DNA of 64,000 bases. Origin: Alphaproteobacteria bacterium (GTDB lineage: Bacteria > Pseudomonadota > Alphaproteobacteria > JANQMY01). The number at the start of each line of letters is the position of its first letter. The first letter of the stretch is position 1. Positions 20,424-42,251 of this stretch are shown here, piece by piece. The DNA lies in contig JANQPL010000003.1 of assembly GCA_028289425.1 (NCBI GenBank), positions 124,001 through 188,000 on the forward strand. The letters run 5' to 3'. The notes under the pieces are model-generated. The model was given only the letters and a program-made list of their open reading frames with translations, made no database searches and had not been told where the DNA came from. Made by a program: the position numbers and the translations under genes.

Positions 20424-20888
20424 ATGAAAAAACTCGTCAGCAAATTTGTCGCGATCGGTATTTTCTTGGCCGGTCTGGTCGCCCTTGCAAGTCCTGCGCA
20501 AGCGGTCGATCCCATTTACACAGGCTACTTTTCAAACCTGGCCGTGTCCGGATATGACCCGGTTGCCTATTTCACCGAAGGTCGTCCTGTGAAGGGCAAT
20601 AGTTCGATCACCCATTCATATATGGGCGCCCAGTGGCGGTTCGCGTCGGAAGAAAACAAAGCCCTGTTCGTGGAGGCCCCTGACCAATACGCGCCCCAAT
20701 ATGGCGGCTATTGCGCCTGGGCGGTGTCACAAGGGTACACGGCAAGCGCGGACCCGGAACAATGGAGCATCGTGGACGGCAAGCTCTATCTGAACTATGA
20801 CGCCAATGTTCAAAGACGGTGGCAAAAAGATATACCGGGCTTCATCGCCGCGGCCGACGAAAACTGGCCGTCCATTCGCGGACGATAA
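20424..20888 (+). CDS. Secreted YHS-domain protein
   Basis: 154-residue exported protein with a Sec signal peptide (FVAIGIFLAGLVALASPAQA, cleavage after AQA). The mature part is a YHS-type domain: AVSGYDPVAYF near the start, then YMGAQWRFASEENKALF, YAPQYGGYCAWAVSQGY (one cysteine) and GKLYLNYD. YHS domains are thought to bind metal or heme-like ligands; the function of this periplasmic group is not known to me. It is followed at once by a strong terminator, so it is a single-gene unit. Confidence 0.88.
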   Translation: MKKLVSKFVAIGIFLAGLVALASPAQAVDPIYTGYFSNLAVSGYDPVAYFTEGRPVKGNSSITHSYMGAQWRFASEENKALFVEAPDQYAPQYGGYCAWAVSQGYTASADPEQWSIVDGKLYLNYDANVQRRWQKDIPGFIAAADENWPSIRGR

Positions 20889-20915
20889 AATCCAAACATA
20901 GAAATGTGATTGGCG

Positions 20916-20944
20916 AAAAGGCTGGCATGGGTGCTAGCCTTTTT
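20916..20944 (+). terminator. Rho-independent terminator after the YHS gene
   Basis: AAAAGGCTGGC (20916-20926), loop ATGGGT and GCTAGCCTTTT (20933-20943) form an 11-bp stem with one G-U pair, ending in five T. It ends only 29 bases before the radical SAM start, leaving little room for a separate promoter downstream of it. Confidence 0.85.
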
Positions 20945-20973
20945 CCCATTGGGATTGGGCAATCGGGGTCCGC

Positions 20974-22068
20974 GTGGAATCGATCTACTACGTCATCAAC
21001 TGGGCGTGCCATCGGAAGTGCAAGCATTGCTACGATGATCGCTTCCGGCCATATGTGCGGGGCGACATGGTCGCACGCATCGCAGAATCCAAAGCCGCCT
21101 TTCCGGCAATCATCGACAATCTGCCCGACACACTGCGCTATCTGGACCCGGATTTTCCGGATACGGACGGAAAGCCGACGGAACGGATAGGCCGCATCGT
21201 GCTCGCTGGAGGCGAGGTGCTGGTGGACCCGGTGCGCGAGCAGGTGTTCTACCCCATCCTCGAAAAGCTCTCGGACAAATACAGCAACGGCAAAGACGGC
21301 AAGATCATCATTCAGACCACGGGAGATTTGGTCACCAAGCCGCTGATAAAAGACATGATCGATCGCGGTGTCTGGCTGATTTCCGTGGCCGGCATGGATG
21401 ATTTTCACGTGGGCATGGAAGGCGACAAACGCGCGCCCATCATGGAAAACCTCACCGCCATGTTCGAAGAGATGGGCCTTGCCCAAGTGCCACTCAACAC
21501 CAAGGCGCGGGATTGGACCCAAGAGGACGGGCCCTTCTTCAATTTCTTCGGCGCCAATCCCGGTGCGTGGATTGGTGAGATTTGGCCGCGCGGCCGCGCT
21601 TGGCAAAACGGGTTGAGCCAAGCGGACATGTCGGTCAACTTTTGCGCGCGGCATTCAGGCGGCAAAAACTTTTTGAACTATGGATGGGCGGGGTCCGAGG
21701 TGGCGATCGAGCCCGATGGCAAAGTCTATCCTTGCTGCCTAAAAACCAAACGCCCCTTGGGCAGTTTGGCGGAAGAATCCCTGATCGACATTTTGGACAG
21801 TTTGAAAGGACACCCGGTCTTCGAGGCGCTCAACCAAGGCACGCCCGATGAGATGGGCGTGACGTTTGGTTGGAGCCGAGCGGATTTCGAAAAGGCATCG
21901 CACACGACAACGCCGGCCGGCGCGCCTTATGCAAATCTTTGTGTCGGCTGCGATCGCTTCTTCGAGGAAAAACTGGGACCGGTTCTGGACGAGCTTCGGT
22001 CCCAGCGCCTCCGTAAGCTGACGAATCGATCACATTTGCAGGAATCAATGATGTCCGGTGCCTCTTAG
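20974..22068 (+). CDS. Radical SAM protein, function unknown
   Basis: 364-residue radical SAM enzyme. The 4Fe-4S motif is at the very N-terminus, CHRKCKHC (Cys12, Cys16, Cys19), following IYYVINWA. The glycine-rich SAM site may be IVLAGGEVLVDP. The C-terminal half has further cysteines in VYPCCLKTKRP and LCVGCDRFFEE, which could hold an auxiliary cluster as in SPASM-like proteins. GTG 20974 is the start, after CGGGG; no longer frame is plausible because a terminator lies just upstream. Five genes follow in the same direction with small gaps, three with 4-base overlaps, suggesting an operon with the membrane Rieske protein. Substrate unknown. Confidence 0.85.
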   Translation: MESIYYVINWACHRKCKHCYDDRFRPYVRGDMVARIAESKAAFPAIIDNLPDTLRYLDPDFPDTDGKPTERIGRIVLAGGEVLVDPVREQVFYPILEKLSDKYSNGKDGKIIIQTTGDLVTKPLIKDMIDRGVWLISVAGMDDFHVGMEGDKRAPIMENLTAMFEEMGLAQVPLNTKARDWTQEDGPFFNFFGANPGAWIGEIWPRGRAWQNGLSQADMSVNFCARHSGGKNFLNYGWAGSEVAIEPDGKVYPCCLKTKRPLGSLAEESLIDILDSLKGHPVFEALNQGTPDEMGVTFGWSRADFEKASHTTTPAGAPYANLCVGCDRFFEEKLGPVLDELRSQRLRKLTNRSHLQESMMSGAS

Positions 22069-32194: not shown

Positions 32195-33715
32195 CTACTG
32201 ATACAAATCCTTGTACTCTTCCCGCAAGGCATTCTTTTGCACCTTGCCCATGGTGTTGCGGGGGATCTCGGTGACTTGGATGATGCGCTTGGGCACCTTG
32301 TAGGACGCTAGATCCTGTTTCATCGTCGCAATGATCTGCGCTTCATCGATCGCCCCGCTCTGTTCAGGCACGACAACGGCCGTTACCCCTTCACCAAAAT
32401 CCGTATGCGGAACACCGATGACCGCTGCATCGCTGATGGAAGGCAGCTCCAACAGCGCCGTCTCGATTTCCTTCGGATAAACATTGTACCCGCCTGAAAT
32501 GATGAGGTCCTTGGCACGCCCTACAATATGCACATAGCCGTTTTCGTCGATGCGGGAGAGATCGCCGGTGATGAAATACCCATCGTCGCGAAATTCGGAT
32601 TTTGTCTTTTCCGGATTGCGCCAATAGCCTTTAAAGACATTGGGCCCGCTCACCTCCAGAACGCCTGTCTCGCCTTGCGGCAGGTCCTCGCCATCCTCTT
32701 TGCACACGCGCACACTGATGCCCGGCAAGGGCGGTCCCACTGACCCAGGTACACGCGCACCGTCATAGGGGTTGGACGTGTTCATGACCGTTTCCGTCAT
32801 GCCGTAGCGCTCGAGGATCGTGTGGCCCGTGCGCGCCTCGAATTCCCGGAATGTATCTTCCATGAGCGGCGCAGATCCCGACACAAACAAACGCATATTG
32901 GCCGTGCACGCGCGGTCGAAATCGGCTTCCCCCAGCAGACGCACATAATGGGTGGGCACACCCATGAACACGGTGGCGCGCGGCAAACGCTCCACGACCC
33001 GGCGCGCATTGAAGCCGGGCAAGAAGATCTGTTTGCTGCCGTTGAGCAGTGCGCAGGGCAAGGCCACGAATAATCCGTGTGCGTGGAAAATGGGCAGGCT
33101 GTGCAGCAACACGTCCCCCGGCACGAACCCCCAGGCCTTATGCAAGGTGAGCGCGTTGGACGCCAGATTGTCATGGCTCAACATGGCGCCTTTCGGCTGC
33201 CCCGTCGTGCCCGACGTATACAAGATGGCGGCAATGTCGTCGGCAGTAGAGACCAAAGTCTCGAAATTGTTTGGCGCGTTTGCCGCCGCCTCCGCGAGCG
33301 TGCCTTGCCCCTTCCCGTCCAATGTGAACACGCGGGGCACATCCGCCTTTTTTGCAACGTCGATCACGGCCACCTGATCGGGGTCGGATACGAAAACGCT
33401 TGGTTCTGCATCGCGCAGCAAATAATCCACCTCTTTTGGCTTATAGGCCGTGTTCATGGGCAGATAGATGGCGCCGGCGCGCAGGCACCCCAAATAGAGG
33501 AACAAGGCGACGGCAGATTTGGGCGCTTGCACGGCCACCCGGTCTCCGGGCTCTACGCCGGCGGCCTTGAGCGCGTTCGCCATTTTGGCGGATTGGATCT
33601 CCAAATCTCCGAAGGAATAGGTTGTGGCGTCTTCTGTTTCCAGCGCAATTTGAGTCCGGTCTGCGGGAAATCGGCTTTCGAACAGGGTATAGAGGTTTTT
33701 GGATGGATCGGTCAT
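32195..33715 (-). CDS. matB: Malonyl-CoA synthetase (MatB-like)
   Basis: 506-residue AMP-forming acyl-CoA ligase closest to MatB, which activates malonate with CoA and ATP. It begins KNLYTLFESRFPADRTQIAL, has the AMP-binding P-loop LYTSGTTGQPKGAMLSHDN, the A-motif RYGMTETVMNTSNPY, the hinge segment GDLSRIDENGYVHIVGRAKD and the C-terminal lysine in PRNTMGKVQKNALREEY. No malonyl-CoA decarboxylase (matA) or malonate transporter is adjacent, so the substrate assignment rests on sequence resemblance. Start ATG 33715. Confidence 0.82.
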   Translation of the reverse strand: MTDPSKNLYTLFESRFPADRTQIALETEDATTYSFGDLEIQSAKMANALKAAGVEPGDRVAVQAPKSAVALFLYLGCLRAGAIYLPMNTAYKPKEVDYLLRDAEPSVFVSDPDQVAVIDVAKKADVPRVFTLDGKGQGTLAEAAANAPNNFETLVSTADDIAAILYTSGTTGQPKGAMLSHDNLASNALTLHKAWGFVPGDVLLHSLPIFHAHGLFVALPCALLNGSKQIFLPGFNARRVVERLPRATVFMGVPTHYVRLLGEADFDRACTANMRLFVSGSAPLMEDTFREFEARTGHTILERYGMTETVMNTSNPYDGARVPGSVGPPLPGISVRVCKEDGEDLPQGETGVLEVSGPNVFKGYWRNPEKTKSEFRDDGYFITGDLSRIDENGYVHIVGRAKDLIISGGYNVYPKEIETALLELPSISDAAVIGVPHTDFGEGVTAVVVPEQSGAIDEAQIIATMKQDLASYKVPKRIIQVTEIPRNTMGKVQKNALREEYKDLYQ

Positions 33716-36212: not shown

Positions 36213-36908
36213 ATGAGCGGGGAAACTTCTCCGCCCTTGTGTTTCGAGACGGGCAAGGTGCGCCAGGAATTGGGCCTGCCCGGACGAGTGCACTCGCCTG
36301 TGGGCACGCCGCTGCGGCGGCTGACGACCCAGGAAGCGGAAGCTGTGGGCCAATTGGTGCCGACAATTCTGTGTGGCGAGGAATCCGCCGTCCACGTCTT
36401 CTACCGCGGCCTGGCGACTTTGCCGGCAGAAGACCGCCCCGCCGTGCTCAAAGTCGTCACCGACGAAACCGAACACGAAACGATGCTGTCGTCCCTGTTT
36501 GATCTTTGTCCGACCCCGGACGATATCAAGCTACGGCGCGCCAAATCGAAACGGTTCTTTATGTCCATGGCGGTGCGCGAACCCGACATCCACTTCGCAC
36601 AAGTCAGTGCCCTGGACAGCGGTGTCTGTATTCTGATGGATGAGTTGCTGCGCGGGCATTCGGCGGTGCTGCGCAATCCCGACCTGACCAGGATCGCGAC
36701 GCGTATAAAAATGGACGAGGCCACCCATGTAGGCGTGACGCGCCGCGCCACCAAGACATTGGGACTACCCGCGAAGACCTATCGCGACCAAGCTGTGGCG
36801 ACGAAACAAGCGTTTTGCGATCACCTGGCCTATTCCGCTGACGCCTTTGAGGCGCTGTCCGTATGCCCCGACAAGCTGTTTAAGCGCATCGTCAGGGAAA
36901 TACCATGA
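36213..36908 (+). CDS. Ferritin-like diiron protein, unknown reaction
   Basis: 231-residue helical protein with the ligand set of a diiron carboxylate enzyme: Glu57 (CGEESAV), Glu85-x-x-His88 (DETEHET), Glu144 (LMDELLRG) and Glu169-x-x-His172 (DEATHVG). Two ExxH motifs about 84 residues apart plus two more glutamates fit ferritin-like oxidases or oxygenases rather than storage ferritin. Start ATG 36213 follows AAGAGG. It overlaps the KAS III gene by four bases (ATGA), so its product probably acts on the same pathway, perhaps oxidising an acyl intermediate. No named family recognised. Confidence 0.8.
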   Translation: MSGETSPPLCFETGKVRQELGLPGRVHSPVGTPLRRLTTQEAEAVGQLVPTILCGEESAVHVFYRGLATLPAEDRPAVLKVVTDETEHETMLSSLFDLCPTPDDIKLRRAKSKRFFMSMAVREPDIHFAQVSALDSGVCILMDELLRGHSAVLRNPDLTRIATRIKMDEATHVGVTRRATKTLGLPAKTYRDQAVATKQAFCDHLAYSADAFEALSVCPDKLFKRIVREIP

Positions 36909-37972
36909 ACGCCTATGTGGTGCAGACGGACCTTCAGGTCCTTGGCACCGGCGAATGCTTCCCAAGTTTGATGTTGGACAGCGAGGAACTGGTGGCTCGC
37001 TTTCGCGACAATCTTGGGTTCGAAAGCGCGCCGCTGGCCAAGCGCATCGCCAAGACCATGGGCATTGAGGAGCGCCGGCTGGTCCGGGATTTGGCCGAAC
37101 CGCGCGAAAAACCCCGGGACAATGAAAGCAATCCGGATCTTGCCGCCGGTGCGGTTCACCAGGCGCTCGGGGAAGCGCAGATCGACGCGCAGGCGCTTCA
37201 ATATCTCATCGGGCACACTGCATCGCCCCACACCTTCATTCCGCCTAACGTTTCCTGGGTGGCGGACCGGCTGGGGTATGGCGGCCCTTATGGCGAGTTC
37301 CGCCAAGCATGCACCGGTTTTGCAAATGCGCTGGTGATGAGCAACGGGCTTTTGTCGGTCAGCGGTGAGGCGCCGGTTGCCATTGTCGGAAGTGAGACCG
37401 GTTCGGTCTTCTGCGACCTTGGCAACCTGGACGCCGACCGGGGACAGTTCGTCAATGCAGTTCAGATGGGCGACGGTTCGGCTGCCGTGATTCTCAAGCG
37501 CGCCAATGGGGACGACACTTCGCGCATCGAGCTTGTCTTTTTCGGTCAACTGAAGACAGGCGCCGTGCCCGGATTTACAATGTCAGAAGGCGCCTCGGGC
37601 GACCCGGCGCTGGAGCGGCGTACCTTGCACTTCGATCACGACTTTAACAGTGTACGGAGCGAAGGGCCCGAATTGTTCGCCCGGGGCCTTGCCACGCTGA
37701 AGCAATTGGACATCGACATTAACGCCATGGATTGGATCATTCCCCATCAAGCCAATGGGCGCATCGACCAGGTGATGGAAGAAGCACTGGGCATCCCGCG
37801 GGAAAAGGTGATCGTGGATGCCAATGTCACGGGCAATTTAGGGTCGGCGGCCATTTGGGTATCGTTTCACCGCCTGCGCACCTCCGACCGCATCAAGCGT
37901 GGCGATCGTGTGCTGGTTCTGGGGGCGGAAGCCACCAAATACATGTTCGGCGGTTTTATCTATCAGCACTAG
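36905..37972 (+). CDS. 3-oxoacyl-ACP synthase III-like enzyme (KAS III)
   Basis: 355-residue thiolase-fold condensing enzyme of the KAS III type. The catalytic triad is visible: Cys136 in FRQACTGFANAL, His281 in WIIPHQANGRI and Asn311 in NVTGNLGSA. It ends with LVLGAEATKYMFGGF, like other FabH relatives. It lies outside any fatty-acid synthesis operon and between a diiron protein and an ABC exporter, so it is more likely a secondary-metabolite or special-lipid enzyme than housekeeping FabH. The ABC ATPase gene starts four bases after its stop. Confidence 0.88.
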   Translation: MNAYVVQTDLQVLGTGECFPSLMLDSEELVARFRDNLGFESAPLAKRIAKTMGIEERRLVRDLAEPREKPRDNESNPDLAAGAVHQALGEAQIDAQALQYLIGHTASPHTFIPPNVSWVADRLGYGGPYGEFRQACTGFANALVMSNGLLSVSGEAPVAIVGSETGSVFCDLGNLDADRGQFVNAVQMGDGSAAVILKRANGDDTSRIELVFFGQLKTGAVPGFTMSEGASGDPALERRTLHFDHDFNSVRSEGPELFARGLATLKQLDIDINAMDWIIPHQANGRIDQVMEEALGIPREKVIVDANVTGNLGSAAIWVSFHRLRTSDRIKRGDRVLVLGAEATKYMFGGFIYQH

Positions 37973-37976
37973 ACCC

Positions 37977-38915
37977 ATGCCGGAGACAACGCCCACACCC
38001 GTCATTGAAGTCAAAGACCTGGTCAAAAAGTTTGACGGCAAAACCGTGGTGAACGGTGTCTCCATTCATGTGAATGAAGGCGAAATCGTCGGATTTTTGG
38101 GGCCCAATGGCAGCGGAAAAACCACCACCATCCGCCTTATGTGCGGGTTGTTGACACCCGATTCCGGCAGCGGCCAGTGCTTGGGCTACGACATCACCAC
38201 CCAAAGCGAAAAGATCCGCCAACAAATCGGTTACATGACCCAGAAGTTCAGCTTCTATGAAGACATGACCGTGGTGGAGAATTTGGATTTTGTGGGCGAG
38301 CTGTATGGGCTTGCCAACCGGGCCCGCCGGGTCAACGACATGATGGCCCAATTCGGCCTGACCCCCCGGCGCCAGCAAGTTGTCGGCACGCTCTCCGGCG
38401 GCTGGAAGCAAAGACTGGCGCTGGCGGCGAGCGTCATTCACACACCTAAGCTTTTGCTACTGGACGAACCCACCGCCGGTGTGGACCCCAATGCACGGCG
38501 CGAGTTTTGGGACCGTATTCACGACTTGGCATCGAAGGGGCTGACCGTCCTGGTGAGCACCCATTACATTGATGAGGCGGAGCGCTGCCATCGGGTCATC
38601 TACGTATCCGACGGTCAAGTGGTGACCCGCGGTACGGCGGACGAGATCATCGACCAGGCAAACCTGTCTACCTGGGTGGTGCGCGGCGACAATCTGGAAA
38701 CGCTCGCTCACGCCCTGGAAAAAAGGCCCGAAGTGCGCCAGGTGGCGCGCTTTGGCCGGTCGCTGCATGTGTTGGGCACGGACGCGGCGAGGCTGGACGC
38801 CCTGGCGGAAGATCTTCGGGACGATCCGGATCACGACTGGCAGCGGGCGGACACCACCCTTGAGGATGTGCTGATCGATCTGGGGGCGCGGAACGACCGC
38901 GCGGCCGCCCCATGA
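37977..38915 (+). CDS. ABC transporter ATP-binding protein (ABC-2 type export)
   Basis: 312-residue ATPase of an exporter. Walker A is GPNGSGKTT, the Q-loop region is IGYMTQKFSFYEDMTVVENL, the signature is LSGGWKQRLALAASVIHTPK and Walker B is LLLLDEPTAGVDP with the switch His in VLVSTHYIDEAE. A C-terminal extension of about 90 residues follows. The layout resembles the ATPases of drug/lipid exporters that work with an HlyD-type partner (YbhF/YhiH group). It overlaps the permease gene by four bases. Confidence 0.93.
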   Translation: MPETTPTPVIEVKDLVKKFDGKTVVNGVSIHVNEGEIVGFLGPNGSGKTTTIRLMCGLLTPDSGSGQCLGYDITTQSEKIRQQIGYMTQKFSFYEDMTVVENLDFVGELYGLANRARRVNDMMAQFGLTPRRQQVVGTLSGGWKQRLALAASVIHTPKLLLLDEPTAGVDPNARREFWDRIHDLASKGLTVLVSTHYIDEAERCHRVIYVSDGQVVTRGTADEIIDQANLSTWVVRGDNLETLAHALEKRPEVRQVARFGRSLHVLGTDAARLDALAEDLRDDPDHDWQRADTTLEDVLIDLGARNDRAAAP

Positions 38916-40051
38916 TCAATCTCGGTGTCAATTGGCGGCGGGTGCGCGCCGTGATGGTCAAGGAGTTCATCCAGCTGCGCCGCGACCGCCTGACCTTCGC
39001 CATGATGCTGGGCGTGCCCCTCTTACAGCTCATCCTGTTCGGCTACGCCATCAACAATGACCCGCGCAATCTGCCGACGGCCGTGTTGGTTGAAGAGAAT
39101 AATCAGTATACACGCTCATTCCTGAATGCGCTGGAAAATTCGCGCTATTACAAAATCAATTCGGTCCTGGACAACCACAGACAGGCGCAGCGCAAGCTGG
39201 AAACCGGCGCGGTCACCTTCGTGGTAACCATTCCGGCGGGCTTTGGGCGGGACTTGCTGCGCGGCGACCGCCCTCAATTGTTGATCCAAGCGGACGCAAC
39301 GGACCCGGCCGCCACAAGCAACGCGGTCGCCGCCTTGGAAGGCATCTCGCGCAATGCCTTCCGTCATGAGTTTCGCGGGCCGCTCGCGTCCCTCAACGCG
39401 CCGCCGCCTGCGGTGGATGTGGTGATCCACCGGCTCTACAATCCGGAATCCATCAGCACATACAACATCGTGCCCGGGCTGATCGGTGTCATCCTTACCA
39501 TGACCATGATCATGATGACCGCGCTCACGCTCACCCGCGAAACCGAAAACGGCACGCTGGAGAACTTGCTCTCCATGCCGGTGACGCCACTGGAAGTAAT
39601 GCTGGGGAAAGTGGCGCCTTACGTGTGCTTGGGCCTATTTCAGGTGACCGTCATTCTGATCACCGCAAGCCTGCTGTTCGGCGTACCCATTGTAGGGTCG
39701 TTGCTGCTTTTATTCCTGGTCGCGCTGGTGTTCATCAGCGCCAATGTGTTCTTGGGGTTCACACTCTCCACCTTCGCACGCACCCAATTGCAGGCCATGC
39801 AGATGACGTTTTTCGTCTTTCTGCCGACGATCCTGCTGTCCGGGTTTATGTTCCCCTTTCGGGGCATGCCGATGTGGGCACAGTATTTGGGTGAGATCCT
39901 ACCCCTCACCCATTTCCTGCGTATGGTCCGCGGCATCGTCCTCAAGGGGAACGGCGTCGCCGAGATCCTCCCCGAGCTGTGGCCCATTCTGCTGTTCCTG
40001 GTTCTGGTCGGGTGGGTCGCCCTGCTCCGCTATCGGCGCACCCTCGATTGA
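38912..40051 (+). CDS. ABC-2 type transporter permease
   Basis: 379-residue permease: one N-terminal helix (LTFAMMLGVPLLQLILFGYA), a periplasmic loop of about 150 residues, then five or six helices with the ABC-2 motif LTRETENGTLENLLSMPVTP before MLGKVAPYVCLGLFQVTVIL. It pairs with the ATPase just upstream. The last 51 codons overlap the convergent HlyD gene by 153 bases, yet the hydrophobic helix LLFLVLVGWVALLRYRR at the end is typical, so the permease end is genuine. Confidence 0.92.
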   Translation: MINLGVNWRRVRAVMVKEFIQLRRDRLTFAMMLGVPLLQLILFGYAINNDPRNLPTAVLVEENNQYTRSFLNALENSRYYKINSVLDNHRQAQRKLETGAVTFVVTIPAGFGRDLLRGDRPQLLIQADATDPAATSNAVAALEGISRNAFRHEFRGPLASLNAPPPAVDVVIHRLYNPESISTYNIVPGLIGVILTMTMIMMTALTLTRETENGTLENLLSMPVTPLEVMLGKVAPYVCLGLFQVTVILITASLLFGVPIVGSLLLLFLVALVFISANVFLGFTLSTFARTQLQAMQMTFFVFLPTILLSGFMFPFRGMPMWAQYLGEILPLTHFLRMVRGIVLKGNGVAEILPELWPILLFLVLVGWVALLRYRRTLD

Positions 40052-41098
40052 TTGCTTGGTGTCCGCCGGCGTCTCCTCGTCGGGACCGGGAAGCTGTTCT
40101 TCCTCGCTTTCAAGTGCCGGATCGGCCATCAAATCCTGATCAAGATCGAGAGCGATCTCCACCGGCTGTCCGGGTTTAAGCGATCGCGCACCCGAAAGAG
40201 GCATGGCTTCCACCAAGAAGACGAGTTTGTCGCGGCTGCCGGAACTGAAAATCACCGGCGGCGTATACTCCGCTTCCGGTGCGATGTAGCTGACCCGCGC
40301 CGTAAGGTCGCTCACACAGCCATCGCACGACACGGTTAGTTCGTTGCCCCGCTCGATGCGCGATAAATACTGTTCCGGAACGAAAAAGCGCAGCTTCTTG
40401 TTCTCCGGCGGTAAAAGCGAGACGACCGGCGACCCCGGGGTAACTACCTCTCCCGGATAATGCAACACATCCGTAATCGTGCCGGGTTTGGGCGCATAAA
40501 CCGTATGCTGATCATACAAATATTGCGACTGCGCCAATTCCGCCTTGGCCGCCCCCACACGCGCTTCAGCCGCCACAATTTCTTTCTCGCGCGCCGGCAT
40601 TTTTGCGGTTTCGAGTTGCGCCATTAGTTCGCGCACGCTGGCTTCGGCGAATTCTTTCTTGCTTTTCGCTTCATCTAACGCCCGTTTCGATCCGGCGCCT
40701 GTGCGCACCAGACGCTGTTGACGGGAAAGCTCGATTTCCGCAAGGCTCAGATCGGCTTGCCGTTCTTCAAGCTGGGCTTGGATGACGTCGATTTCCTGTG
40801 GCCGCTTGCCACTCAGCAGGTTTTCCAATTCCGCTTCCGCCTGGGCCACCCCCGCCTTGGCGCGCGCCAACAGGGCGGCATGTTCCCGGTCGTCCAATTT
40901 GAACAAGGCTTCGCCCGCGGCCACTCTGTCGCCTTCTTCCACCAGCATCTGCTCGAGACGGCCTTGAACCTTGGGACCGGCCAGGATGAAGTCGCCTTCC
41001 ACATAGCCTTCCACATACAGATGGCGGTCATCGCCACACGCCGCCAGCGCCGCGCCGAGCACGGCGGCGAATAGGATGGATGCGGCGTTACGGACCAT
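39899..41098 (-). CDS. HlyD-family membrane fusion lipoprotein
   Basis: 399-residue periplasmic adaptor. It starts with a lipoprotein signal (LFAAVLGAALAAC, lipobox Cys21), then a barrel-sandwich half (VQGRLEQMLVEEGDRVAAGE), a long coiled-coil hairpin (about 70-175) and the second half (VYAPKPGTITDVLHYPGEVV). It likely links the ABC exporter at 37977-40051 to an outer-membrane factor. ATG 41098 is the start. The last 60 or so residues are acidic, Gln/Asp-rich and antisense to the permease end, so this tail is not normal HlyD sequence and was probably gained by stop-codon loss. Confidence 0.88.
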   Translation of the reverse strand: MVRNAASILFAAVLGAALAACGDDRHLYVEGYVEGDFILAGPKVQGRLEQMLVEEGDRVAAGEALFKLDDREHAALLARAKAGVAQAEAELENLLSGKRPQEIDVIQAQLEERQADLSLAEIELSRQQRLVRTGAGSKRALDEAKSKKEFAEASVRELMAQLETAKMPAREKEIVAAEARVGAAKAELAQSQYLYDQHTVYAPKPGTITDVLHYPGEVVTPGSPVVSLLPPENKKLRFFVPEQYLSRIERGNELTVSCDGCVSDLTARVSYIAPEAEYTPPVIFSSGSRDKLVFLVEAMPLSGARSLKPGQPVEIALDLDQDLMADPALESEEEQLPGPDEETPADTKQSIEGAPIAEQGDPPDQNQEQQNGPQLGEDLGDAVPLEDDAADHTQEMGEG

Positions 41099-41698: not shown

Positions 41699-41992
41699 CT
41701 ATTTCTCCTTTAAAACCGGTTCTTGCCGTTTGTGAATGATCGCGATGACTACGATGCCTTCATCGGTACCTCTGTAGTAAATCACATGGCTCTGATAGGG
41801 AAACGAACGGAGATTTGGTGCAAGCCATTCCGCAAGCTTCCCAATCGTCGGCAATTCAGCCAGCCGCAGGCAAGTTTCTTGAAGTCCGTGTACGTATCGC
41901 TTCGCTTGATCTGCGCCCCAGTTTTCAATCGTGTAGGCAACGATGCTTTCAATGTCGCGTCTGGCTTCATCCGCGAACTCAATCTTCGGCAT
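41699..41992 (-). CDS. RelE/ParE-family toxin
   Basis: 97-residue toxin of a type II toxin-antitoxin pair. It shows IEFADEARRDIESIVAYTIE, the middle segment LPTIGKLAEWLAPNLRSFPY and VIYYRGTDEGIVVIAIIHKR, the usual ParE/RelE fold pattern with a late Arg. Whether it hits ribosomes or gyrase cannot be told. The start overlaps the antitoxin end by 14 bases. The antitoxin is upstream, as in most such operons. Confidence 0.9.
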   Translation of the reverse strand: MPKIEFADEARRDIESIVAYTIENWGADQAKRYVHGLQETCLRLAELPTIGKLAEWLAPNLRSFPYQSHVIYYRGTDEGIVVIAIIHKRQEPVLKEK

Positions 41993-42251
41993 GGTCCGTC
42001 ATGGCAAACAAAGCATTGAACACGGCCTTGCCGTCGGTCACGCGCCCTGCGTCCGCGTCGCCGAGGCCGCGCGCCACTTTTTCTTTGAGGGCCGCCAGTT
42101 TCATCGCCTCGATCTCGGCATATTCTTGGGCCGAAATGACGACGGCGACCGGCCGTCCGTGTTTGTGGATCGCGACGGGCTCCTGCTGGGCCGTATCCAA
42201 GAGCTCCCCGAAACGGTTCTTTGCGTCTGCAGAGGCAAGCTTGCGCACCAA
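41979..42251 (-). CDS. Phd/YefM-family antitoxin
   Basis: 90-residue antitoxin. The N-terminal DNA-binding part is typical of Phd/YefM (MVRKLASADAKNRFGELLDT, then PVAIHKHGRPVAVVISAQEY) and the C-terminal helix would wrap the toxin. It overlaps the toxin gene by 14 bases. A set of four TTTAGCC-like repeats just upstream (42266-42308) is a natural candidate for its operator. Confidence 0.9.
   Translation of the reverse strand: MVRKLASADAKNRFGELLDTAQQEPVAIHKHGRPVAVVISAQEYAEIEAMKLAALKEKVARGLGDADAGRVTDGKAVFNALFAMTDHAED

Follow-up and report, generated by a model that had tools for sequence, protein, structure and literature searches.

Does the run of genes at this locus, in which a diiron protein and a KAS III condensing enzyme are encoded directly ahead of an ABC exporter, form a single pathway, and what kind of product would such a pathway make and release? 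We analysed these genes within the 64,000-nucleotide stretch of alphaproteobacterial DNA that carries them (hereafter, the window), together with homologous loci in other genomes. The features concerned are listed in Table 1.

Table 1 Features of the window discussed in the text, with positions counted from its first nucleotide.
Feature	Position	Strand	Description
Exported YHS-domain (seleno)protein gene	20424-20888	+	Best YHS copy of the window, 15 kb upstream of the cassette
Malonyl-CoA synthase gene	32195-33715	-	NCBIfam 789.9 bits (cut-off 558)
Diiron protein gene	36213-36908	+	231 aa; predicted ferritin-like, no curated family
KAS III (FabH-like condensing enzyme) gene	36905-37972	+	355 aa; triad C136-H281-N311
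ABC exporter ATPase gene	37977-38915	+	ABC_tran above cut-off (Pfam)
ABC-2 permease gene	38912-40051	+	ABC2_membrane_3 172.8 bits (cut-off 31.6)
HlyD-type periplasmic adaptor lipoprotein gene	39899-41098	-	Pfam HlyD above cut-off

The spacing of the four forward-strand genes agreed with the original prediction of a coupled set: the diiron and KAS III ORFs overlap by 4 bases, a gap of 4 bases separates the KAS III ORF from that of the ABC ATPase, and the ATPase and permease ORFs share 4 bases. The convergent HlyD-type ORF, likewise predicted as a lipoprotein gene, shares 153 bases with the permease gene; when started at the ATG at 41098, it carries a lipobox-like LAAC (read by eye). Families of ACP_syn_III, ABC_tran, ABC2_membrane and HlyD scored above the Pfam cut-offs in this region, and an ABC exporter, as had been claimed, was thus recovered with both its ATPase and its ABC-2 permease.

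The search for conserved diiron-KAS III pairs succeeded in both Alpha- and Gammaproteobacteria. In 17/19 distinct homologous loci the diiron gene came first and was immediately followed by the KAS III gene. The overlap is 4 bases in the window and in genomes G739 and G294, and the longest ORFs of the two genes overlap in 14/17 pairs. Distances between the diiron proteins and between the KAS III proteins of the 17 pairs correlated with r 0.97, a correlation that shared descent alone could give. Relatives of the diiron protein were rare, save in the order of genome G642: they occurred in 2/289 genomes drawn from the class of the window genome and 5/398 drawn from its phylum, and in 3/369 of the class and 15/148 of the order of G642 (the draws overlap, and the window genome is counted among both the 289 and the 398). 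An additional contig scan of genomes for diiron relatives returned only the protein of G065, and a scan of viral sequences returned no relative. This G065 protein, from an alphaproteobacterial MAG and the same as that of locus L010, is one of the two homologues without an adjacent KAS III gene; the other lies on a Piscinibacter gummiphilus plasmid (L003 11806-13449), where an alpha/beta hydrolase gene follows the diiron homologue and KAS III is absent.

The reverse situation, a related KAS III without the diiron gene, was found twice. A KAS III profile searched against the 398 genomes of the phylum gave six matches at E 1e-50, one of which was new. This was G567, a complete alphaproteobacterial genome with the gene order YHS lipoprotein-KAS III-ABC ATPase-ABC-2 permease; its KAS III is 45% identical to that of the window, and a diiron search relaxed to E 1 found no homologue in this genome. 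The plasmid collection contained a single KAS III relative, encoded by the giant plasmid of Streptomyces clavuligerus (three records, 40.6% identity), with a membrane FA_desaturase gene overlapping the KAS III gene by 4 bases and genes for a luciferase-like monooxygenase and then a KR-ACP protein downstream. This desaturase-KAS III-monooxygenase-KR-ACP run of pCLA1 (L038 12829-18003) is unannotated in the collection and looks like a small biosynthetic cluster. G567 shows the diiron gene to be dispensable, as its KAS III and ABC exporter are retained in the absence of that gene. Taken with the S. clavuligerus plasmid, it makes KAS III the constant part and the oxidising partner exchangeable or absent.

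The exporter genes vary as well. The gammaproteobacterium G739 has the same order as the window (diiron-KAS III-ABC ATPase-ABC-2 permease), its ATPase and permease being 35% and 39% identical to those of the window, and the permeases of the window and G567 are 38–39% identical. By contrast, 11/17 pair loci have an MMPL/RND-type gene as the immediate upstream neighbour of the diiron gene, in the same orientation. One such gene tested, from G1009, belonged to Pfam MMPL, and another, from G642, matched the HpnN and HAE3 amphiphile transporters best in NCBIfam, below their cut-offs. No adjacent ABC-2 or MMPL exporter gene was found in four of the 17 pair loci (G510, G1071, G1022 and G1004); in G1022 and G1004 a nearby phosphonate-type importer was deemed, by eye, to be unrelated to the pair. 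Since two unrelated exporter types adjoin one enzyme pair, export probably belongs to the function of the module. The KAS III tree, from which G1107 was left out as its gene is cut by the contig end, grouped the MMPL loci with those lacking an exporter, at high support (100/99), and left the three ABC loci outside this group; several branches are long.

The pump of the window could nevertheless be a general efflux system of the YbhG or RbbA kind that merely adjoins a real enzyme pair without being functionally linked to it. Its best NCBIfam matches are indeed general ones (DrrA, RbbA and PRK03598), all under their cut-offs, with the HlyD-type protein reaching 172.8 bits against the 393 of PRK03598, and the HlyD adaptor, DrrA/RbbA-like ATPase and RbbA-like permease together resemble the YbhG-YbhFSR and YhiI-RbbA-YhhJ exporters. 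The window genes differ from these exporters in falling below all the curated cut-offs concerned and in being joined to a KAS III operon. G739 and G567, the two other loci of the ABC type, showed no HlyD gene in their cassettes, and the four pair loci lacking an adjacent exporter point the same way. However, the KAS III-ATPase-permease order is common to G739 and G567, with the permeases of the set 38–47% identical, and a second exporter type adjoins the pair in 11/17 loci. We regard a functionally unlinked pump as quite unlikely. The HlyD-type lipoprotein is a probable but unproven partner of the ABC exporter.

The nature of the diiron protein was then considered. Nothing exceeded a curated cut-off in searches of Pfam, NCBIfam, PHROGs, PADLOC and PDB sequences; the last three have no curated cut-offs, and the protein gave weak matches or none there. 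Pfam AurF (PF11583) scored 16.2 bits, under its gathering cut-off of 29.6, NCBIfam gave no match, and phmmer matched no PDB sequence. No match to the aldehyde-deformylating-oxygenase family of Pfam was listed to E 1, a search in which HMMER filters drop weak matches. The attempt to place the protein in a known family thus failed on these searches. A profile of seven homologues gave weak matches to diiron proteins, including a designed one (E 5.6e-4) and a ribonucleotide-reductase-like chain (E 1.6e-3). The AlphaFold model, built from two sequences, is a helical bundle (pLDDT 80.3, pTM 0.80). Foldseek found nothing below E 0.001 with this model; R2-like oxidases came first at 1.9e-3, and cADO 4rc5 followed at E 5.5e-3. 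After structural realignment cADO 5ux2_B ranked first (Z 19.1, rmsd 2.8, 190 aligned residues), ahead of R2-like oxidases (Z 17.1), ribonucleotide reductase R2 and methane monooxygenase. We take the match to cADO as one of fold and not of function, because high Z scores are common among helical bundles.

The model thus agrees with the ferritin-like bundle expected of a diiron enzyme, while the list of six ligands in the original prediction had to be mended through conservation. Positions invariant in the 19 homologues include C10, P50, C54, G55, E56, S58, E85 and H88, as well as D135, D168, E169, H172 and F212. The two ExxH motifs, E85xxH88 and E169xxH172, stood as predicted, but E57 (helix A) and E144 (helix C) did not: position 57 is Gln in 15/19 homologues and position 56 is Glu in 19/19, and position 144 is Glu in 2/19 and position 135 is Asp in 19/19. 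E144 and D135 would lie about 180 degrees apart on an ideal helix, and D135 is 34 residues ahead of E169xxH172. We therefore replaced E57 and E144 by E56 and D135, which makes E56, E85xxH88, D135 and E169xxH172 the most likely ligands: these are invariant, and E57 and E144 are not. The protein is accordingly best described as a ferritin-like diiron carboxylate protein with a predicted metal site.

It resembles cADO, whose substrate is a fatty-acyl-derived aldehyde, in being a small ferritin-like bundle. It differs from cADO in sequence (10–14% identity, and no match to a curated family), apparently in the helix-C ligand, which by conservation would be Asp (D135) rather than Glu, and in its partner, which is a KAS III, no acyl-ACP reductase partner being seen. 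The AurF/CmlI/Dob3 diiron N-oxygenases are also ferritin-like and share the weak Pfam AurF match mentioned above, but that match lies under the cut-off and they are larger proteins. Could the protein not be an oxygenase at all, but a regulatory or protective partner of KAS III that binds metal or bears a radical? R2-like oxidase and ribonucleotide-reductase folds are near at Z 16–17, and the invariant C10 and C54 could have a redox or structural role. On the other hand, every ligand position is kept in 19/19 members, and Streptomyces pairs its KAS III with another type of O2-activating enzyme, the membrane desaturase, so that we consider such a role very unlikely.

The nearest described logic is that of BioE, a small ferritin-like diiron oxygenase of biotin synthesis which acts on acyl-ACP or acyl-CoA with the ligands E, ExxH, E and ExxH, according to PMC12915131. 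BioE differs in that its helix-C ligand follows the first ExxH at a distance of 69 residues (PMC12915131), against 47 here. The present protein also has Asp at helix C, and its locus includes export genes and lacks biotin genes.

This likeness bears on the order of the reactions, as the diiron enzyme may act first, oxidising or cleaving a long-chain acyl-ACP as BioE does to give an unusual starter that KAS III would extend before export. The substrates of cADO-type enzymes, acyl-ACP or its aldehyde, count for such an order. So do the diiron gene preceding KAS III in 17/17 pair loci, the Piscinibacter plasmid, where a hydrolase gene instead of KAS III comes after the diiron gene, and the action of BioE on acyl-ACP (PMC12915131). 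Gene order is, however, a poor guide to reaction order, and the KAS III and exporter of G567, found without a diiron gene, imply another starter for this KAS III type, at least there. We judge a diiron-first route unlikely.

The condensing enzyme itself is more readily placed. C136 is kept in 18/18 aligned rows and H281 and N311 in 17/18, the exception being G1107, which ends at its contig end; the Cys136-His281-Asn311 triad, predicted as intact, is so indeed. E131, R133, Q134, E342 and K345 are also conserved. With this triad and Pfam ACP_syn_III domains above cut-off, the protein is a member of the ACP_syn_III superfamily and shares its fold family with KAS III enzymes of the FabH, BioZ and OleA type. 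It differs from them in scoring below the NCBIfam subfamily cut-offs of housekeeping FabH (113.7 bits against 249 for NF006829, and 103.3 against 292.1 for TIGR00747) and in bearing its own C-terminal signature, GAEATKxxxGGF. The window genome has a separate KAS III, with an ACP_syn_III score of 113.3 bits vs 32.2 for the cassette enzyme. The single-sequence AlphaFold model had a pLDDT of 32.8. The best-scoring KAS III of the PDB was 5by7, whose identity the literature search found in no paper.

The cassette enzyme also matches BioZ chains in the PDB (9j6e, E 3.7e-12), which raises a biotin-precursor route in which a BioE-like diiron enzyme and a BioZ-like KAS III would yield pimeloyl-ACP; PMC12915131 describes BioZ as a KAS III and BioE as a diiron oxygenase that acts on acyl-ACP. 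Yet ordinary FabH chains match the cassette KAS III as well as, or better than, BioZ, bioB of the window genome lies on another contig, and the exporters of the cassette would be needless for a vitamin precursor. This route is highly improbable.

A YHS (seleno)protein gene adjoins the KAS III cassette in G739, G294 and G567. YHS copies numbered one to six per genome in all 18 genomes examined, and adjacency was observed in three of the 18 vs about 0.04 expected, a post hoc estimate that treats the genomes as independent. We regard the link as a lead only, and as weak in the window, where the YHS copy lies 15 kb off. There the YHS gene is followed by one for a SPASM-domain protein that looks like a radical SAM protein (20424-22068, +).

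Because diiron-KAS III pairs are kept in both Alpha- and Gammaproteobacteria, mostly with an exporter gene alongside, the compact acyl-product pathway of the original prediction is the best reading of the locus, with the qualification that the diiron gene is dispensable, as in G567. We give about an even chance to a small biosynthesis-and-export module in which the acyl-product pathway is built on KAS III, the O2-activating enzyme that tailors the product is exchangeable, and the exporter is dedicated to it. Judging from its family and intact triad, KAS III would condense an acyl thioester with malonyl-ACP or malonyl-CoA to a beta-ketoacyl compound. The diiron protein, by its fold and ligands, may be a compact oxygenase of the aldehyde-deformylating-oxygenase fold using O2 and an external reductant, and would hydroxylate, desaturate or cleave a C-C bond of the same acyl chain before or after condensation. 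The linked exporter, ABC-2 here and MMPL/RND in most gammaproteobacterial loci, would move the amphiphilic product out. The carrier protein and ketoreductase would be drawn from housekeeping fatty-acid synthesis, and KAS III would stay constant while oxidising enzyme and exporter are swapped between loci.

The claim that this set matches no recognised pathway held in a literature search, most subscription papers being outside its reach, which found no paper describing it. Each part is of a known kind, and the combination and the diiron family appear to be undescribed. More tentatively, and with some doubt on our part, the KAS III subfamily may mark an undescribed, widely scattered lipid-secretion pathway with two unrelated kinds of O2-activating diiron enzyme (a new ferritin-like family in proteobacteria and, in Streptomyces, a membrane fatty-acid desaturase), with exporters likewise of two unrelated types (ABC-2 and MMPL/RND) and, in some genomes, a periplasmic YHS lipoprotein as a possible recipient of the product; on this view the ferritin-like enzyme would represent a new diiron family that oxidises acyl chains and has Asp as its helix-C ligand. 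If the module is right, it offers a compact, genetically tractable system of three to five genes in which to study both a novel acyl product and a novel family of diiron oxygenases. As several near-complete gammaproteobacterial genomes carry the pair, gene deletion combined with lipidomics could reveal the product in growable strains, and the swapping of oxidase and exporter about a constant condensing enzyme is a natural experiment on which part sets the product.

The predicted lack of a local ketoreductase applies to the window cassette but not everywhere: in one gammaproteobacterial genus (L039-L043) an SDR gene, possibly for a ketoreductase, follows KAS III in 5/6 loci examined, G642 being the exception. 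The malonyl-CoA synthase gene of the window lies 2.5 kb from the KAS III operon, divergent from it, in a neighbourhood that looks catabolic; the enzyme could supply the extender unit, the linkage being weak. On the other side of the cassette, adjoining genes for a ParE-type toxin and a Phd/YefM-type antitoxin (41699-42251, -) form a type II toxin-antitoxin pair.
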